DNA of 37,219 nt, taken from a virus. Each line of letters begins with the position of its first letter. Positions within the stretch are counted from its first letter, which is position 1. A model generated the notes under the pieces. That model was not told the origin of the DNA. It worked only from the letters and a program-made list of their open reading frames with translations, and did no database searches. The stretch lies in IMG/VR virus record IMGVR_UViG_3300024520_000227, positions 1 to 37,219 of that record; one strand, 5' to 3'. This document shows positions 147-37,219 of the stretch, in pieces. Both the position numbers and the translations under genes were made by a program.

Positions 147-256
147 GCGGAAACCACGCTGAACAGTTGCCCGACCTCGCCGCTAGCGCGGCCAAGAATG
201 CGGGCCAGACGCTCACGCTGACAACGTGGGACGACTCGCAAACCTTCACCCCATAA
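2..256 (+). CDS. 3' part of junction-spanning Cys-containing protein
   Basis: The frame is open from base 2 and continues the gene that starts at 37042. Joined across the contig ends it gives about 95 residues. A CPCG motif follows the RQMF segment, and a further Cys and His lie in YCGNH, so a small zinc-binding fold is possible. A GTG at position 17 could be mistaken for the start, but the joined gene has a clear AGGAGG site and ATG at 37042. No family is recognised. It is followed 24 bases later by the GP88-like gene, with the leader CCATAACCCA in between. Confidence 0.75.
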   Translation, partial: LGTDDVNTAERRYTCKLVASRQMFCPCGTVLDQSSVVVLEGPGVTRGYCGNHAEQLPDLAASAAKNAGQTLTLTTWDDSQTFTP

Positions 257-280
257 CCCAACAACGGGAGTAGCTACCCA
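251..280 (+). promoter_or_regulatory. CCATAACCCA leader motif, copy 1
   Basis: The 10-mer CCATAACCCA (251-260) sits directly between two early genes. It is followed by GGGAG then AGCTAC, ending at the ATG at 281. The same 10-mer recurs at 965, 3550, 33213 and 35669, always on the plus strand. Here it overlaps the stop codon of the upstream gene, and GGGAG probably serves as ribosome site. Its role beyond a leader is unknown. Confidence 0.5.
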
Positions 281-961
281 ATGAACGTAGAGCACCGATA
301 CTGTGCAGACCTTGGCATGTTCGCAGTGGACAGGCCTATCAACACCATCCGAGACGACAACGGGCGCGTCACTGCCAAGGGTTCGTGCCTTTGGAAGACG
401 TCAGCTTGTGACGACTGCTTCAATCTGAAGTTTATGAAGATGTACCAACGGGACATCGATGCCCGGGACGTGCGGAACGAGCAATCGTGGCAGGGCCTGA
501 CAGGCAAGGCCTTGCGCGATACGCTCAACCGGAAGCGTAATCAGACCGAGCGCGTGCGACTGATGACACGGGGTGAGGCTTTCCGAGACCGGACGGACAT
601 CATCCGAGTGCGCGACCTACTGACTGCGAACCCTGGCCGGAAGTTTTGGATACCTACCAGGGCATGGCGCAACAGGCACCTGCGGCCGCTGATCGTGGCA
701 ATCATGCGGGAGTTCCCGAACGCCAGGATACAGGCCTCGACAGACGTGACAACGACACGTGAGGAACAGGCCAGTCTCGACGCTGAGGGCTGGTCGACAA
801 TGTTCTTTGGCGACGACGAGGCATTCGAGACCTTGACAGGCGAGGAACGCCACCTATGCGCGAAGACATGGGAGAAAAGCAAAGGGGCATGCGCCACCCG
901 ATGCGGGAAGGGCGGATGTTTTGACAAGGGACAGACGCACGTGCACCTGAAGCAGCACTAG
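281..961 (+). CDS. GP88-like Cys-rich phage protein
   Basis: The 226-residue product has an N-terminal cysteine group (SCLWKTSACDDC, about residues 35-46), a central arginine-rich stretch with the pattern P..KFWIPTRAW (about 120-130), and a C-terminal cluster of four Cys (CATRCGKGGC) ending in HVHLKQH. This layout resembles the GP88 family of phage proteins, whose function is unknown; the match is from memory of the pattern and was not searched. The Cys clusters suggest zinc or an iron-sulfur cluster, which is inference. It lies early in the plus-strand operon, downstream of a CCATAACCCA leader. Confidence 0.7.
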   Translation: MNVEHRYCADLGMFAVDRPINTIRDDNGRVTAKGSCLWKTSACDDCFNLKFMKMYQRDIDARDVRNEQSWQGLTGKALRDTLNRKRNQTERVRLMTRGEAFRDRTDIIRVRDLLTANPGRKFWIPTRAWRNRHLRPLIVAIMREFPNARIQASTDVTTTREEQASLDAEGWSTMFFGDDEAFETLTGEERHLCAKTWEKSKGACATRCGKGGCFDKGQTHVHLKQH

Positions 962-9102: not shown

Positions 9103-12100
9103 CTAGCGACGCCTGCTGGCCCTGGCCTTGTAGTGGGTCGTCCCAACACCGAAGGCGTCCAGGGCAACTGGGATCAGTCGCTGCATGAGCTTCTTCTCCT
9201 TACCAGTCATCTCTTCCCAGGCCTCCTCGGCGATGTTCTGAACCGTGATGGGGGTGAACGCGCCCATGGCGGGGAACACGCCCCGGTGCAGGACCACGGC
9301 CATGTAGTTGTCGAGCTTGGCGTTGACGAACTCCTCCATCAGCTTGTCCGTCTTGAGGGCCTCGACGGTTATCTTTCGTCCCCGGAAATCCTTCCCACTC
9401 CACGCTTGCCACATGGCCCCGATAAGGGGGGCGACCTTATTGCGAACCATTCGGGTCATACCCCTGCCAAAGTGCTCAGGGGATGTGATGAGCGGAATCA
9501 CATAGCGCCACGTGCTGGCCAGGCCGCCAGTGAGGTCTATATGATAGTCACCCACCCGGAACTTACCGGAGTCCGGGCCAGTGGAGGCGAAGTTGTCGAG
9601 GTTCTCCTCCGGGCTATCAGGCCCAAGAACAGAGGTCAAGAGCGCAAGACCGCCAATGAATGCCAGGTTGCGACCAACGCGCAGGCCATACTCCTTACGC
9701 ACAGCAGTGGAAACATTGGCGAACTTGCCAAGCCCAAGCGCAAGCTGGACTATCCGGTAGGGGGTCTCCAGCCGGGACAGCGTGAAGCGAGGGGCGAACA
9801 TCACATGCCGCGAGAGCTGCGCAAGCGCACCCGTGCCGCTCACCCAGTCACCGCGCCCGCTGCTGGTGTTGAGGAGAAGGGCAAGGGCCTTGATGTCATC
9901 ACGCGGTATCTTCTTGAGCATCTCCTTGATGTCGGACGTGTCCTTCACCCCATGGATGGGCGCCAAAATGTCACGCACCCCCTGGTCGAAGGTGGCGGTA
10001 CGCAGAAAGTTCAGGGTTAATCCGAAGACATTCTGGGAGGGGGTGGTGAGGTACTCGCCCAGGAGTCCAGACTCCAATGCCCGGAACATGAACAGCTCTT
10101 CACGAGCCTGAAGGGGGCCACCCTTGACGTTCGACATGCCCTCCACCTCCGTCAGCTCAAGCCCCCCAATGTCACGAATGATCTGCATGGGCGCCTCAAG
10201 TATGCCGCGTTGCAGGCGAGCCGCGTAGGCCCTGTTGTCCTTTGTCCAGGGGGCAAGCTGATATGCAATAGGCAGCGTCTTGGCGGCTGCGACAGGGTTC
10301 TGGATGAGAAGACCTATGGCCTGTCGGCCCAGCGCGGAGTCGTCGCCAGACGAGGAGAGGATGAGGGATGCCCCGAAGACACGCCTATACGCAGACAGCG
10401 CTCGCTGACCGCGCGTTACATTCTGGGGAACCTGAGACTTTTCACGCTGGGCTCGGCGGATTTCGCCATCGGCACGCGCAACGTCGTTGGATGCTTTCGC
10501 GATTGCCTTCTCGGCGACGCGAACACCCCGCTCAGAGTTGGCCTGATCGGCGCGTGACAGCAGGCGCCTCGCCTTGAGGAGTTGGTGCTTGGCGCTGCGG
10601 CGCTTCCCGCCGGCCTCCTTCTCATCGGCCTCGGCCTTGGCCCATATCTCAGCAATGCGGACATGCTCACCCTCGGTGAGGTCGCGACCCTTCTTGAGCA
10701 TGAACTCAATCTTGGCGCTCGCCAGGTCGGGTATCTCCCGAACAATAAGCTGCCTGTATCTTAGGCCACGGCCAAACTCAGAGCCCGCACGGCGCAGCGC
10801 AATCCCGGCAGCGAGGATGTCCTTATCCACCTGAGCCAGCCGGCCCCTATACAGCTCAGCGTCAGCATCCGGGGACTTCATGACCTCCATGATATCGTTT
10901 CGCGCTTTCCTGTTCATCATGACAGCGGCATGGATGGCGGCCTGCTCGACAACAGAAGGGCCGTGGCCCTCTTCGCTGGCGCGCTGAATCAGCTCACTCA
11001 ACTTGGCCCCGTGCTCAACCAGTCCAATCTCGGCCATCCGTGGACGCAGCCCCTGTGCGTCAACATCTGATAGCACCTGAGCAAAGGCGACCCGCTTGGA
11101 GCGGGTGAGCGCCTTCTTCTGCTCGTCGGTCAGCAGCAAATCTTCTGCTGCTTGAAGCATGACTGGGTCAATGTCTGCAAACTTGGCGGCCAGGCCGCTC
11201 CGGTCGATGTTTGCCTGGTTGAGGTGTCTGCCGGCAAGGGAGGTCATGATGACCTCATCGACCTTCGCTGACGGGGTCGACGGGTCTGAGAGTGCCTTGA
11301 CGAGTTCGGCATCCTCGACCCTCTGGGACGGCACCGCCTCTTGCACCACTGTTTCGGTAGCCCTGGTGGTCGGGCGAGCGGGAGCGTCGGGCCTCACGAT
11401 GCGTGGCCTATCGACCTCACCAGTGGAGATGACCTCCTCGGCGAGGACCTCTGCCTCTACGGCCTCGGTGGGTTGGACCACATCGGCGTCCCTTACAGCG
11501 CCACCGGACAGCTCTTCGGCGTAGCGGGTGGCAGCGGCGCGGTCTCTAGGGAGCCGCGACACATCGACGAGTCCGCGGCCAACTCCGCCGATCCCGGCAC
11601 CGGCAACAGCGCCCCCAAGTGAGCGCCACCCCATCTCCTCGACATCCACGCCCAGGATGCCCTCGTCACGGGTGCCGATCTGCTCGGCGACAGTCTGTGC
11701 AGACTCCTGCACAGCCTCGGTGGCGGCCTCCTTGGTGGCGGCGCGACCCACACGGCCCAGCATCGACCCCTTGGCGGCGGGGCTGACGATGCCCTTGACC
11801 CCGGCCCTCTCAAGGGCCGAGATACCCGTGGAGGCTATGGCCGAGATGCCCACATCGGCAGGGCTGACAGTGTCGGAGCCACGGTTGGCTGCCCTTTGCC
11901 GGGCCATGTCGCCAATCATGGAGTAGGCAGACGCAGGGAGGGACAGCCCGGCAAGGGCCATTCCGGGGATGGCGTTCACGCCGGTCTCCACCACGAACTT
12001 GGCTAGCTTCTCAGGCGTCTCGGACCAGCTGGGGTCCTGAAATACCTCTTTGATATCACCAACCTCTGGCGTCCATGACTGGTCTTCCCACTCCTTCCAG

Positions 12101-12465
12101 CTGGCGTTGAGGTCTTTGTACGCAGTGGTCCCGGTGGCCCACTCGGCTATCTTCTGGAGGCTTGTCTGCGGAAGGATATAGCCAATGCCTGGCAGCGCCT
12201 CGTCCAGTGCGCGGGGCGTCTCGACGGCGAAGCCACGGGCGGCGCGGGATAGGCCTTGGATAAAGGCGTTACCAAGGCCAGACCGATCTTCGTCCTCGTC
12301 GCCCTCGGTGGTGGCAGTCGAGAGTAGTGGGTCGGTGAGTGGAGGGGGACGCTTGGTGGCGCCAGACGACTTCATGACGCGGAGTATGCGTGCAGCCTCC
12401 TCTTTCGTGGGGACGCTCCCCTCGATCTCCACAGGCCCAAGGCCTTTGATGTTGACGATGCCCAC
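9103..12465 (-). CDS. Large internal virion-type protein, 1120 aa
   Basis: Starts at GTG 12465, ten bases after the upstream stop. The N terminus has GLGPVEIEGSVPTKEEAARI, a pattern seen at the start of large podoviral internal or ejected proteins (from memory). An acidic linker (TATTEGDEDEDR, about residues 50-62) follows, then hydrophobic glycine-rich helical segments around 160-310 and long coiled-coil regions in 440-700. The C-terminal 400 residues are helical and may bind membrane or DNA. No transglycosylase motif is seen. It is the last structural gene before lysis and probably enters the host with the DNA. Confidence 0.65.
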   Translation of the reverse strand: MGIVNIKGLGPVEIEGSVPTKEEAARILRVMKSSGATKRPPPLTDPLLSTATTEGDEDEDRSGLGNAFIQGLSRAARGFAVETPRALDEALPGIGYILPQTSLQKIAEWATGTTAYKDLNASWKEWEDQSWTPEVGDIKEVFQDPSWSETPEKLAKFVVETGVNAIPGMALAGLSLPASAYSMIGDMARQRAANRGSDTVSPADVGISAIASTGISALERAGVKGIVSPAAKGSMLGRVGRAATKEAATEAVQESAQTVAEQIGTRDEGILGVDVEEMGWRSLGGAVAGAGIGGVGRGLVDVSRLPRDRAAATRYAEELSGGAVRDADVVQPTEAVEAEVLAEEVISTGEVDRPRIVRPDAPARPTTRATETVVQEAVPSQRVEDAELVKALSDPSTPSAKVDEVIMTSLAGRHLNQANIDRSGLAAKFADIDPVMLQAAEDLLLTDEQKKALTRSKRVAFAQVLSDVDAQGLRPRMAEIGLVEHGAKLSELIQRASEEGHGPSVVEQAAIHAAVMMNRKARNDIMEVMKSPDADAELYRGRLAQVDKDILAAGIALRRAGSEFGRGLRYRQLIVREIPDLASAKIEFMLKKGRDLTEGEHVRIAEIWAKAEADEKEAGGKRRSAKHQLLKARRLLSRADQANSERGVRVAEKAIAKASNDVARADGEIRRAQREKSQVPQNVTRGQRALSAYRRVFGASLILSSSGDDSALGRQAIGLLIQNPVAAAKTLPIAYQLAPWTKDNRAYAARLQRGILEAPMQIIRDIGGLELTEVEGMSNVKGGPLQAREELFMFRALESGLLGEYLTTPSQNVFGLTLNFLRTATFDQGVRDILAPIHGVKDTSDIKEMLKKIPRDDIKALALLLNTSSGRGDWVSGTGALAQLSRHVMFAPRFTLSRLETPYRIVQLALGLGKFANVSTAVRKEYGLRVGRNLAFIGGLALLTSVLGPDSPEENLDNFASTGPDSGKFRVGDYHIDLTGGLASTWRYVIPLITSPEHFGRGMTRMVRNKVAPLIGAMWQAWSGKDFRGRKITVEALKTDKLMEEFVNAKLDNYMAVVLHRGVFPAMGAFTPITVQNIAEEAWEEMTGKEKKLMQRLIPVALDAFGVGTTHYKARASRRR
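12284..12322. repeat. 39-bp exact direct repeat, copy A
   Basis: Identical to 12483-12521, 199 bases away in the same orientation. This copy lies in the 5' part of the 1120-residue gene and encodes the acidic linker TATTEGDEDED. The other copy encodes the C-terminal tail of the neighbouring 824-residue protein. The two copies are in the same reading frame relative to their genes. Confidence 0.9.
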
Positions 12466-34313: not shown

Positions 34314-34590
34314 AGCAATCGCCTCACTCGCGCGCGCACGCGCTCTTAACTGCAGGGGAGATCTTAAATAAGGTCCCATCAATGGTGCGGTCTTACCCGC
34401 ATGTTCTCCGCAAAGCGTCGAACCCTAGGGTAAGAACCTTACCATCGATGAAACCTCGAACCAGCGGCGTAGCCCAAAGCGAAGCCGCGCCGTCTAAGAC
34501 ACAAACTCCCGCCGCTGAGGGGGACCGATGGTGCGCGCACTCAGGGGGCTGAGAGCCGCTTACCATCTACTATATGTAGTTATACTAAAT

Positions 34591-34619
34591 ATTATAGCAC
34601 GGATTGACGAGTTTGTAAA
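34591..34619 (-). promoter_or_regulatory. Strong sigma70 promoter for the minus arm
   Basis: On the minus strand TTTACA (34614-34619), 17 bases, then TATAAT (34591-34596): five of six and six of six matches. The RNA would start near 34584 and carry about 270 bases of leader before the first gene at 34313. The palindrome CTACTATATGTAG (34567-34579) would lie just inside the RNA, a natural repressor site. Confidence 0.75.
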
Positions 34620-34789
34620 CTGGGTCGATCAGGTACGCCGAATAGCCCAGAGAGGCTATCGGCTGAAGCCCACACAGTGATCAGATTCATTCGACGAATC
34701 CCAAAATACCGGCGCGTAAAAAAGGTGACACACCGCCTCGACAAGGCGGGGGGTCGCCGCGTCATCGATCACCCGAGCAAGCGCTCGGT

Positions 34790-34884
34790 GTCAACTAACT
34801 ATACACCCTGCGTCAACTAGCTATACGCACACAGCTGTATACTAGCTATACACCTACCGAACGGTAACCGTATACCTACTATAC
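34790..34884. repeat. Four 15-bp imperfect-palindrome repeats (iterons or operators)
   Basis: GTCAACTAACTATAC (34790), GTCAACTAGCTATAC (34812), GTATACTAGCTATAC (34837) and GTATACCTACTATAC (34870). Each is partly self-complementary (GTATA and TATAC ends). Starts are 22, 25 and 33 bases apart. They lie between divergent arms, some 170 bases from the minus promoter. Either a repressor array or replication iterons would fit; no cognate protein is evident. Confidence 0.8.
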
Positions 34885-34890
34885 ACCCAC

Positions 34891-34907
34891 TGTCTCAGCC
34901 TGAGACA
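34891..34907. promoter_or_regulatory. 17-bp perfect palindrome, operator-like
   Basis: TGTCTCAG (34891-34898) and CTGAGACA (34900-34907) around one central base. It directly follows the repeat array and precedes the palindrome CTCGCGCGAG (34914-34923). A dimeric regulator site is the obvious reading; a second palindrome, ACGGT-A-ACCGT, lies at 34861-34871. Confidence 0.6.
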
Positions 34908-35388
34908 CCCACCCTCGCGCGAGTATCCTATGGGAATGGAGCCCCGTTCCCCCTGTTCGCTGTGCTGCTAGGTATGGCACAACATGTAGTGGGTAGGGAT
35001 TGGGAAGGGTACAAGATATGGTATCCACAACCCCTAAACGTTGTACTGCTCTACAGCCCAAAACCCACAACCCACCAGGCACCACAGGGCCCACACAAAA
35101 GACCGGACCTAAACCCCTGGAATCATGACAGCTTTTCTACCCTTTGATTTCATTTGAATCAAACCTTGCCCCTTGAATCATGATTTTGTAAACTGTGGTC
35201 ACGTTCGTTGAAAACCCGACCCCGCCCCATACAGGACACCGGCATTTCCCGGTTCGCCTGAGGGGCTTCACGGTGGCTGTGTAGCTTTTTAGCTCCGCCC
35301 GTGAGGCACAAGGTCAGGACGATACGAGCGCTCATTGACAACTGAATAGCAAAGATTCGAGGGACCATGGCACCCCATAGGAGGAGCC

Positions 35389-35622
35389 ATGTTCCACCCG
35401 ATAGAAGACCTACTAAGTGAACGACAGGATTTTGACGTGTCCACAGCCATAAGGCTCGGCCGGGCAGCGAATGGATATGCGCTCTACGAGCACCCACGAT
35501 ATGGGGATGAGTTCCCAATCGTGGCGGTGAACCTAACGACCGGCGAGAAGTTCAACACGTGGTACTTTGACATTGAGGATGCGCGTGGCCTCTTGGCCAT
35601 CCTCCAACCCACCTGCTACTAA
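35389..35622 (+). CDS. Hypothetical early protein, 77 aa
   Basis: First gene of the plus arm, with ribosome site GGAGGAG five bases before ATG. The protein is compact, with two short beta-like stretches (GYALYEHP, FPIVAVNL) and an acidic C-terminal helix (FDIEDARGLLAIL). Not recognised. Its downstream hairpin AGACC-GCTAT-GGTCT (35628-35642) marks the start of the non-coding region. Confidence 0.65.
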   Translation: MFHPIEDLLSERQDFDVSTAIRLGRAANGYALYEHPRYGDEFPIVAVNLTTGEKFNTWYFDIEDARGLLAILQPTCY

Positions 35623-35639
35623 CCCATAGACCGCTATGG

Positions 35640-36375
35640 TCTCTCGAATCTTTGCTACTCAGACCACCCCATAACCCAACAACAGCACCCGGAGACCTAT
35701 CGCAAATGCCCAGTACAAGTGTGACCTGCGTCTGATACCGACGCGATGGAGTGCACGAGGAACGGCAAGGCCGACAGCTATCTGGAATGCCCGAAGCTCA
35801 CCGAGTGAGCCACAGGAGCAGACCAGGGAATACCTCTCAACGCGACGATGGAGACCGTCTAGCGACGGAGAAGCCGCGAGAGTGAAAGCCCACTGGACTT
35901 GAACAAAGGGACTAGTCCGCCCGAAATAGGGAAGCGTAAGACGATAGGGTGTTGCAGAGGTCTGCTGTGCCCTGACGTGTCCGAACCAATACGGCGCATA
36001 GCGCCATTAGGGACACTTGTCAGACATGCCCGTGGAAACCGCGCCTGTCGTTTATCCTTCCACCTATCGAACCCGTCGACGTGACACGGCCCCATTGGCA
36101 AGGGCTAGGACGGGTGAGATGTGCCAGGAGTGAGACGAAAGGTCTCGCCGACTGGTAGCAGTACGGTCCCGGGGTGAAGCCTCAGACTGACAGACTGCAA
36201 AGTAAGCCGAACCCAACCGGACCAGCGAGGCATGGTCAAACCGTGGATAGGTGCCTGCTACTAGAACGCAGGGAGGGTTATACCCTCGAACAAGCGCGCA
36301 CCAGTCCTGAGTCTAGGCGCTCCCCGAGCGTTGGTGCTCGGGTCGCTCGTGTGCCCTTCTTCGAGTGTTTAACTG
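35640..36375 (+). ncRNA. Candidate large structured non-coding RNA
   Basis: About 735 bases without a supported gene, inside the otherwise tightly packed early arm. Strong stems include GCGTC/GACGC (35728-35744), CGGC/GCCG (35763-35773), GCTCAC-CGA-GTGAGC (35796-35810), a long nested stem CTGACGTGTCC with GGACAC..GTCAG enclosing GGCGC-ATA-GCGCC (35972-36023), CGTGG-AAA-CCGCG with a U-G pair (36031-36043), GAGAC/GTCTC (36132-36146), GACCA/TGGTC (36220-36237), CCTGC/GCAGG (36254-36272), GAGGGT-TAT-ACCCTC (36273-36287) and CCCGAGC/GCTCGGG (36323-36342). The U-G pair favours plus-strand RNA. A CCATAACCCA element at 35669 opens it. Size and phage setting recall GOLLD and ROOL RNAs, but identity is unproven. 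Confidence 0.65.
35669..35678 (+). promoter_or_regulatory. CCATAACCCA leader motif at start of non-coding region
   Basis: Fifth copy of the 10-mer. Upstream it shares GAATC and ACCACC with the copy behind the 3513 promoter, suggesting a related 5' end. No ribosome site plus long frame follows: the nearest ATG (35706) gives nine codons then a stop. Confidence 0.5.
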
Positions 36376-36390
36376 ACCAGGAGTTGAGAG

Positions 36391-36759
36391 ATGACAACGT
36401 ACAAGCCAACCCCAATCGATGACGCAGATGACGCGCTATGTGTGACCATGGTCAAAGCTGGCGTGGTCCTGCAGGCACGAAGTAACTTCACGCAGGCGTG
36501 CGTCGGAGTGGGTGCTGACGCACCTACCTTCAAGGACCTGACCGCACAGTCTCCCAGGGGATTGCGTGAGCAATGCCGCGGAATGCTCGCACTGGTGGGC
36601 GTGATGGCAGAGCGGAACGATTTGACAGACGCCGCGGCTATGGTCAAAGACGCAGTCTTTGTGATGGTCTCAGGCATCGATGAGACGCTTGACCTCGCCA
36701 AGAAACGCGACATGAAGACGGTGGGCGACCACCTTGCTGCGTTCTACGGCAAGCAATAG
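36391..36759 (+). CDS. Hypothetical early protein, 122 aa
   Basis: First gene after the non-coding region, with AGGAG seven bases upstream. It is predicted mostly helical (VMAERNDLTDAAAMVKDAVF, GIDETLDLAKKRD), acidic and soluble. The spacing to the next gene is nine bases. No family recognised; position next to the RNA makes it a candidate partner, which is inference only. Confidence 0.65.
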   Translation: MTTYKPTPIDDADDALCVTMVKAGVVLQARSNFTQACVGVGADAPTFKDLTAQSPRGLREQCRGMLALVGVMAERNDLTDAAAMVKDAVFVMVSGIDETLDLAKKRDMKTVGDHLAAFYGKQ

Positions 36760-37041: not shown

Positions 37042-37219
37042 ATGGACTTCGAGGAAATCATAGGCCGAGCGATGCTCGGTATGGACGACGCAGACACCGC
37101 AGAGCGGCGCTATACGTGCAAGCTCGTCGCGTCACGGCAGATGTTTTGCCCGTGCGGGACAGTGCTCGACCAGTCGAGCGTCGTCGTATTGGAGGGGCCA
37201 GGCGTCACGCGAGGGTACT
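37042..37219 (+). CDS. 5' part of junction-spanning Cys-containing protein
   Basis: Starts at ATG 37042, five bases after AGGAGGGCGAT, reading MDFEEIIGRAMLGMDDADTA and continuing past the right end in frame with 2-256. In the overlap the right copy reads GMDDADT where the left copy reads GTDDVNT, so the variants change amino acids. See the left part for the Cys motif. Confidence 0.75.
   Translation, partial: MDFEEIIGRAMLGMDDADTAERRYTCKLVASRQMFCPCGTVLDQSSVVVLEGPGVTRGY
37074..37219. repeat. Right copy of 146-bp terminal overlap
   Basis: Matches 1-146, with five differences in the first 20 bases and identity thereafter. Joining the ends restores one continuous gene and gives a unit of about 37,073 bp. 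Confidence 0.9.

Follow-up and report, generated by a model that had tools for sequence, protein, structure and literature searches.

We analysed a complete virus record of 37,219 bases (IMGVR_UViG_3300024520_000227), referred to in its full length as the window. Positions 1-146 and 37074-37219 match each other apart from about six mismatches. Because of this terminal repeat of 146 bases at both ends, the genome is a circular or circularly permuted molecule of ~37.07 kb, and its early arm carries on past the right end to the start of the record. A predicted terminase, DnaB helicase, ERF recombinase and SU10-like major head protein identify the virus as a tailed phage. The direction of transcription is leftward from 34382 for the late arm and rightward from about 35389 for the early arm. 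Bacterial genomes were compared by DnaB alignment and no relative was found, so the host remains unidentified. Within the late arm, a protein of 1120 aa (9103-12465) weakly matched a virion RNA polymerase family (phrog_2206, E=0.003).

The early arm opens with a small gene whose 77-aa product matched phrog_11770 (unknown function, E=2e-8). It is followed by 768 nt (35623-36390) without a gene, according to a codon model trained on the genes of this phage: every ORF inside this stretch scored zero or below, and each of the six frames contained 4-12 stops. The sequence-only reading of this DNA had described the block as gene-free, and these scores bear it out. It had also taken the arm to be otherwise packed with genes, which is not the case everywhere, as the same scoring left about 1 kb located 5' of the first early gene (34383-35388) gene-free as well. 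This divergent region harbours four iteron-like 21-nt direct repeats of the GTATACTAGCTATACACC type (34790-34890), perhaps a replication origin or repressor sites. About 60 nt of it (34704-34766) are conserved at 75-80% in several relatives. The features of the locus are compiled in Table 1.

Table 1. Features at the start of the early arm (window coordinates).
Feature	Position	Strand	Description
Upstream boxA-like motif	35204-35215	+	TTCGTTGAAAAC; at most one mismatch to TYCNTTGAMAAC
boxA-like motif	35331-35342	+	CTCATTGACAAC; abuts 5' arm of long helix
Long helix, 5' (leader) arm	35342-35371	+	only above-threshold long-range inverted repeat in the window
First early gene	35389-35622	+	77 aa; codon score, RBS; enclosed by long helix
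Long helix, 3' (trailer) arm	35633-35662	+	pairs with leader arm at 29 of 30 positions
Large structured RNA block	35663-36375	+	gene-free, homologous to relatives, folds on plus strand; true RNA ends undetermined
Domain X	35973-36022	+	TGAC+GTGTCC / GGACAC+TT bulge+GTCA; inner hairpin GGCGC/GCGCC
Domain Y	36066-36120	+	ATC-GA-ACCCGTC / GACGGGT-GA-GAT; inverted repeat I4
Domain Z	36123-36156	+	GCCAG-GA-GTGAGAC-GAAAG-GTCTCGC-CGA-CTGGT
Domain W	36201-36262	+	AGTA/TACT, GACCA/TGGTC, helix between
3'-terminal long hairpin	36277-36373	+	inverted repeat I1; 28-nt arms, 79% complementary
Following early gene	36391-36759	+	122 aa, no function assigned; 3' border of RNA block

Folding of the plus strand (35664-36372) gave a minimum free energy of -269 kcal/mol, compared to -246 ± 8 kcal/mol for dinucleotide shuffles (z=-2.74; 1 of the 60 shuffles was as low). 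The minus strand of the block folded ordinarily (z=-0.75). These values agree with the earlier description of a hairpin-dense block, and the strand-specific wobble pairing claimed with it is real, since the G.U pairs favour plus-strand RNA. The excess seen by single-sequence folding is modest; it was lacking on the plus strand of the relative G019 (z=-1.28), and several relatives had an excess on the minus strand too. Of the block as first delimited, 35640-36375, the first ~25 nt (to 35662) belong to the 3' arm of a long helix around the upstream gene and not to the large RNA. For the 5' part of the block (about 35700-35862) no homologue was detected; the remainder is common to relatives.

A terminase search retrieved 33 metagenomic contigs (69-83% protein identity), and further relatives were added via the gp88 gene and the helicase, while the 122-aa gene located 3' of the block yielded none. 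In G024, G010, G030, G019, L067 and L080, a gene-free block of about 450-770 nt was found in the equivalent place, among the first units of the early arm. Homology of the blocks was assessed by direct pairwise blastn (word size 4), which linked the relatives as a chain: window to G024 (59% over 417 nt, E=7e-15), G024 to L080 (64% over 560 nt, E=5e-38), L080 to L067 and to G010 (83% and 78%, respectively, over the first 320-360 nt), L080 to G030 (81% over an inner 110 nt) and G030 to G019 (87% over the last 138 nt). Since L080 unites parts that occur separately elsewhere, the RNA is, judging by these alignments, modular, with domains exchanged between phages. Blastn searches with the right arm and with the L080 block against 50,697 phage records returned nothing. 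Inside the RNA block of G030 (L057:10431-10447) we observed a perfect tRNA T-arm-like hairpin (GCGGGTTCGAATCCCGC), which directly precedes one arm of a 9-bp acceptor-like stem (GTGCTGCGG/CCGCAGCAC); ARAGORN called no tRNA.

A covariance model (R1) was built from G010, L067 and L080 only and run over 430 kb of phage sequence. It detected its three parents, window 35971-36159 (43.9 bits, E=4.6e-10) and G024 (37 bits, E=3.6e-8), with no other match at E<=1. Pairing statistics were calculated from MAFFT alignments made without structure, each resting on four to six sequences only; shuffled alignments and alignments slid by 1-3 columns served as controls. For domains X and Z, 15 of 26 pairs were changed on both sides, a level reached by none of the 500 shuffles, and 93% of the cells were paired (versus 76% shuffled and 30-42% slid). 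Changes on both sides affected 7 of 19 pairs in domain W (96% of cells paired) and 6 of 31 pairs in domain V of the relatives (94% of cells paired); for these domains, too, the pairing was lost in the slid controls.

Among all helices, domain X received the best covariation support, which confirms the nested stem over 50 bases that had been noticed at 35972-36023. Compensatory changes were found at most of its pairs (window, G024, G010, L067 and L080): at this stem the window has GTGTCC/GGACAC, G024 has GCGCCC/GGGCGC and the remaining ones have CAGCCC/GGGCTG. In domain Y, G024 carries GCTATC/GATAGT, with both sides changed (two sequences only), and the hairpin sequence of domain Z, GACGAAAGGTC, recurs in relatives. 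The domain Y change and part of the evidence for domain Z stem from a comparison of hand-picked helices, which is selection-biased and was not relied on. The 3' hairpin of the window is inferred, from its position only, to be the counterpart of domain V; a model of the latter (R2) did not match it. R2 weakly matched the 3' parts of L067 and L050 (G010), which are positional counterparts (E=0.12 and 1, respectively). Its reverse-strand matches were rejected as new copies, as they are mirror images of the same hairpins.

The sequence-only reading would have been refuted by codon-constrained evolution across the block, by missing covariation or by absence from all relatives with no transcript. 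No codon signal was found, covariation was strong and the six relatives carry homologous blocks. These comparisons establish, at the level of aligned sequences, that the block does not code for protein, has homologues in other phages and is under constraint to keep its base pairs. It meets the general criterion for a large structured phage RNA, namely a non-coding region with compensatory changes in several phages, with its transcription being inferred.

A scan of the window and the other contigs of the group for long-range complementarity revealed, for the window, only the arms around the first early gene. This helix and the boxA-like element before it had escaped the sequence-only reading. 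Gene-enclosing helices are present in the window, G029, L080, G019 and G010, the latter having two in tandem, which gives six cassettes. In G029, the equivalent helix contains a homologue of the 77-aa gene (67% identical); the arms and cargo genes of the L080, G019 and G010 cassettes differ. Across the six helices, 11 of 30 pairs were changed on both sides and 96.5% of the cells were paired, with one position being G.U in five of the six. The best partner of each 5' arm was its own 3' arm (-41 to -56 kcal/mol); the near-identical arms of the window and G029 paired best with the 3' arm of either one. For every one of the six, the plus-strand RNA forms the more stable helix, and the six cargo genes share the same orientation. 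The existence of the predicted helix and its covariation are shown by this comparison of arms, and its action as RNA on the transcribed strand is well supported. G029 has the helix without the large RNA, whereas G024 and G030 have the large RNA without the helix. Thus, either unit can exist without the other, and one need not be processed by the other. In the tandem of G010 (L050:2410-3280), the two cassettes have separate boxA-like elements and different arms, and no credible family was found for the cargo proteins of 105 and 120 aa. The literature searched (open-access papers only) did not yield any account of a phage with a pre-rRNA-like helix around a gene.

Allowing for one mismatch, TYCNTTGAMAAC had two matches on the early strand of the whole window, both in the leader, and none on the other strand. 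One boxA-like element stands immediately before the 5' arm, and about 130-140 nt upstream of it there is a second one in the window and in L080; at the place corresponding to this second motif of the window (35204-35215), L080, G010 and G024 each have one. While the window, L080 and G010 possess boxA-like elements, G029 and G019 have only the weaker CTGACAAC/TTGACAAA forms; there are no binding data. The exact 17-mer at the 35331 motif, CATTGACAACTGAATAG, occurred in 59 stretches in about 85,000 genomes. Four of the 59 exact matches were in sense orientation 114-245 nt upstream of a 16S or 23S rRNA gene (Planctomycetales, Thermoanaerobaculia, Adlerbacteria and Kerfeldbacteria). BoxA serves to recruit NusB/S10 at nut sites and in rRNA, and RNase III cuts the leader-trailer helices that flank rRNAs (PMC10250234). 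The boxA-like match of the window is short and departs from the proteobacterial consensus (GYTCTTTAANA in gamma-proteobacteria, PMC5725501). A promoter scan recognised no promoter, and at the block borders neither a promoter nor a terminator of the block's own was recognised. TTGACA at 35334 was discarded as a -35 box for want of a fitting -10 in the promoter scan.

To place the block among known RNAs, we compared it with Rfam 15. The whole database gave no match in the window, and the block remained empty even at E<=10 with relaxed filters. This covers GOLLD, ROOL, HEARO and group I and II introns, the families singled out by the sequence-only reading, as well as riboswitch and tmRNA models. 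The blocks of the relatives gave no match either, and neither the window nor the relatives contained tRNA or tmRNA genes. Direct GOLLD and ROOL searches of ten records were empty; they lacked a positive control, the control genomes being silent too, and their sensitivity is not independently shown. The sole Rfam match in the relatives lies outside the blocks: a type II hammerhead ribozyme (42.9 bits, above the Rfam cut-off) in an intergenic gap of the early arm of G024 (L049:3817-3902), which is absent from the window and the other relatives searched.

Like the block, GOLLD (RF02032) is a large, ornate and modular non-coding phage RNA with a better-kept 3' part, but the block shows no sequence-structure match to it, has no adjacent tRNA island and sits behind a helix-enclosed gene. 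GOLLD is also known from marine metagenome sequence, and its linkers sometimes contain tRNAs (PMC12286853). ROOL (RF03087) shares with the block its occurrence in phages and prophages, a similar length (574-position model), many helices and an unknown function; the block differs by lacking a match and a tRNA island. Both GOLLD and ROOL are often neighbours of such islands. HEARO is a structured RNA associated with an ORF, but the block has no Rfam match to it, and the embedded ORFs encode varied small proteins and no HNH endonuclease. The lambda nut and HK022 put RNAs are likewise early-leader elements of phages, modify host RNA polymerase and, in the case of nut, contain boxA. However, no N-like protein was identified in our phage, and we know of no gene-enclosing long helix or 700-nt RNA at nut or put. 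The locus resembles bacterial rRNA operon leaders in that a boxA-like motif precedes the 5' arm of a ~30-bp helix around a transcribed unit, and the exact 17-mer is also found ahead of 16S and 23S genes. In contrast to rRNA operons, the helix encloses a small protein gene, and the phage motif abuts the helix, whereas boxA and boxC of E. coli are 18-19 nt apart (PMC10250234).

We consider it probable that the block encodes a modular, structured plus-strand RNA of about 450-700 nt, which forms a new class of large RNAs in the early operon of an uncultured tailed-phage clade and, in the window, has a pre-rRNA-like unit located upstream. The sequence-only reading had proposed a large phage RNA, and a new class should it be neither GOLLD nor ROOL; the empty Rfam 15 search, the covariation and the homologues lend support to this proposal. 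Large structured phage RNAs are a kind already known. This class is absent from Rfam, and the arrangement around the RNA, with a gene-enclosing helix and a boxA-like element, is possibly unprecedented.

By analogy, the first unit of the operon would have the layout with which bacterial rRNA operons begin, and the large RNA would be the second unit. Host RNA polymerase would start upstream of the boxA-like element, which would load host NusB/S10 and thereby allow the polymerase to transcribe a long stretch of structured, untranslated RNA without being stopped by Rho. The two arms would then pair and host RNase III would cut the helix. Such a cut would free the mRNA of the first gene and set the 5' end of the large RNA that follows, and this RNA, once folded, might be active in infected cells in a GOLLD- or ROOL-like way. 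A working boxA, cleavage by RNase III, transcription and an effect in trans are inferences only. It is a tentative proposal, to which we give somewhat less than even chances, that these phages imitate the host rRNA operon as a whole, with boxA antitermination, leader-trailer helices that take up different small protein genes, and a new, modular, rRNA-like large RNA that is freed by the host enzymes of rRNA processing and serves the cell as a scaffold or RNA machine.

The very large structured RNAs of phages fall into only a few known classes. Two of these, GOLLD and ROOL, have been solved as homo-oligomeric nanocages, but no function has yet been assigned to either. Another class, with a modular build, a fixed early position and close, alignable relatives, offers a new handle on the role of such RNAs. 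The boxA-like element and the helix around the gene point to a way in which phages might escape Rho termination while transcribing long untranslated RNAs, and the helix frame to a way of inserting small genes into a unit resembling pre-rRNA.

The main rival interpretation is that the block is not a free RNA but a large, structured cis-acting leader through which the early genes behind it are controlled at the level of transcription or translation, for example by antitermination or anti-Rho activity like that of HK022 put or Bacillus EAR. Its location inside the early operon between genes, the lack of a recognised promoter or terminator at its borders and the boxA-like elements just upstream are all compatible with such a role. 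However, G029 lacks the block and still has early genes, and with 450-700 nt and at least five covarying domains the block is far larger than any cis antiterminator known to us. We therefore regard a cis-acting leader as rather unlikely, but cannot exclude it. The inverted repeats could also be DNA sites, i.e. a cruciform or an invertible or exchangeable cassette, the enclosed gene being moved by recombination. Different small genes in the same frame across phages and the tandem cassettes of G010 would fit this explanation, which we find improbable: all six cargo genes point in one direction, the recurrent G.U position and the greater stability of every helix as plus-strand RNA argue for RNA, and the arms differ between cassettes of one genome, as shared recombination sites would not.

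A very diverged GOLLD or ROOL would explain the size, the early or intergenic position in a phage and the ornate fold of the block, and the T-arm-like hairpin of G030 recalls the tRNAs of GOLLD linkers (PMC12286853). However, Rfam searches at E<=10 with relaxed filters left the window block empty, the blocks of the relatives had no match, the direct searches, though without a positive control, were empty too, and tRNA genes are absent. We consider this origin very improbable. Finally, the block might be a decayed coding region or a random spacer, and at its 5' border there is indeed intergenic spacer with an RBS-like sequence, as found before real genes of the arm (for example at window 247-290). 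Stops in all frames in seven phages and negative codon scores speak against this explanation. Since decay cannot produce compensatory pairing changes, it is refuted by the covariation, barring an alignment artefact, and we regard it as practically untenable.

Other stretches resemble parts of the locus. Pattern matches in L097-L102 were attributed to chance, as they had neither a blastn match to the blocks nor an R1 match. G006/L082 have a gene-free stretch at the equivalent place without detectable homology to the RNA, and were therefore excluded from the family. The 3' hairpin in the early arm of L082 contains a GAGCCTAGGCGCC motif, which is similar to GAGTCTAGGCGC in the 3' hairpin of the window. 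At the 3' end of the L080 block (L080:280-337), we observed a nearly perfect hairpin, GAATCAGTCTACCA-GCCAACG-TTGGTAGACTGATTC, which resembles a helix cassette without a gene.
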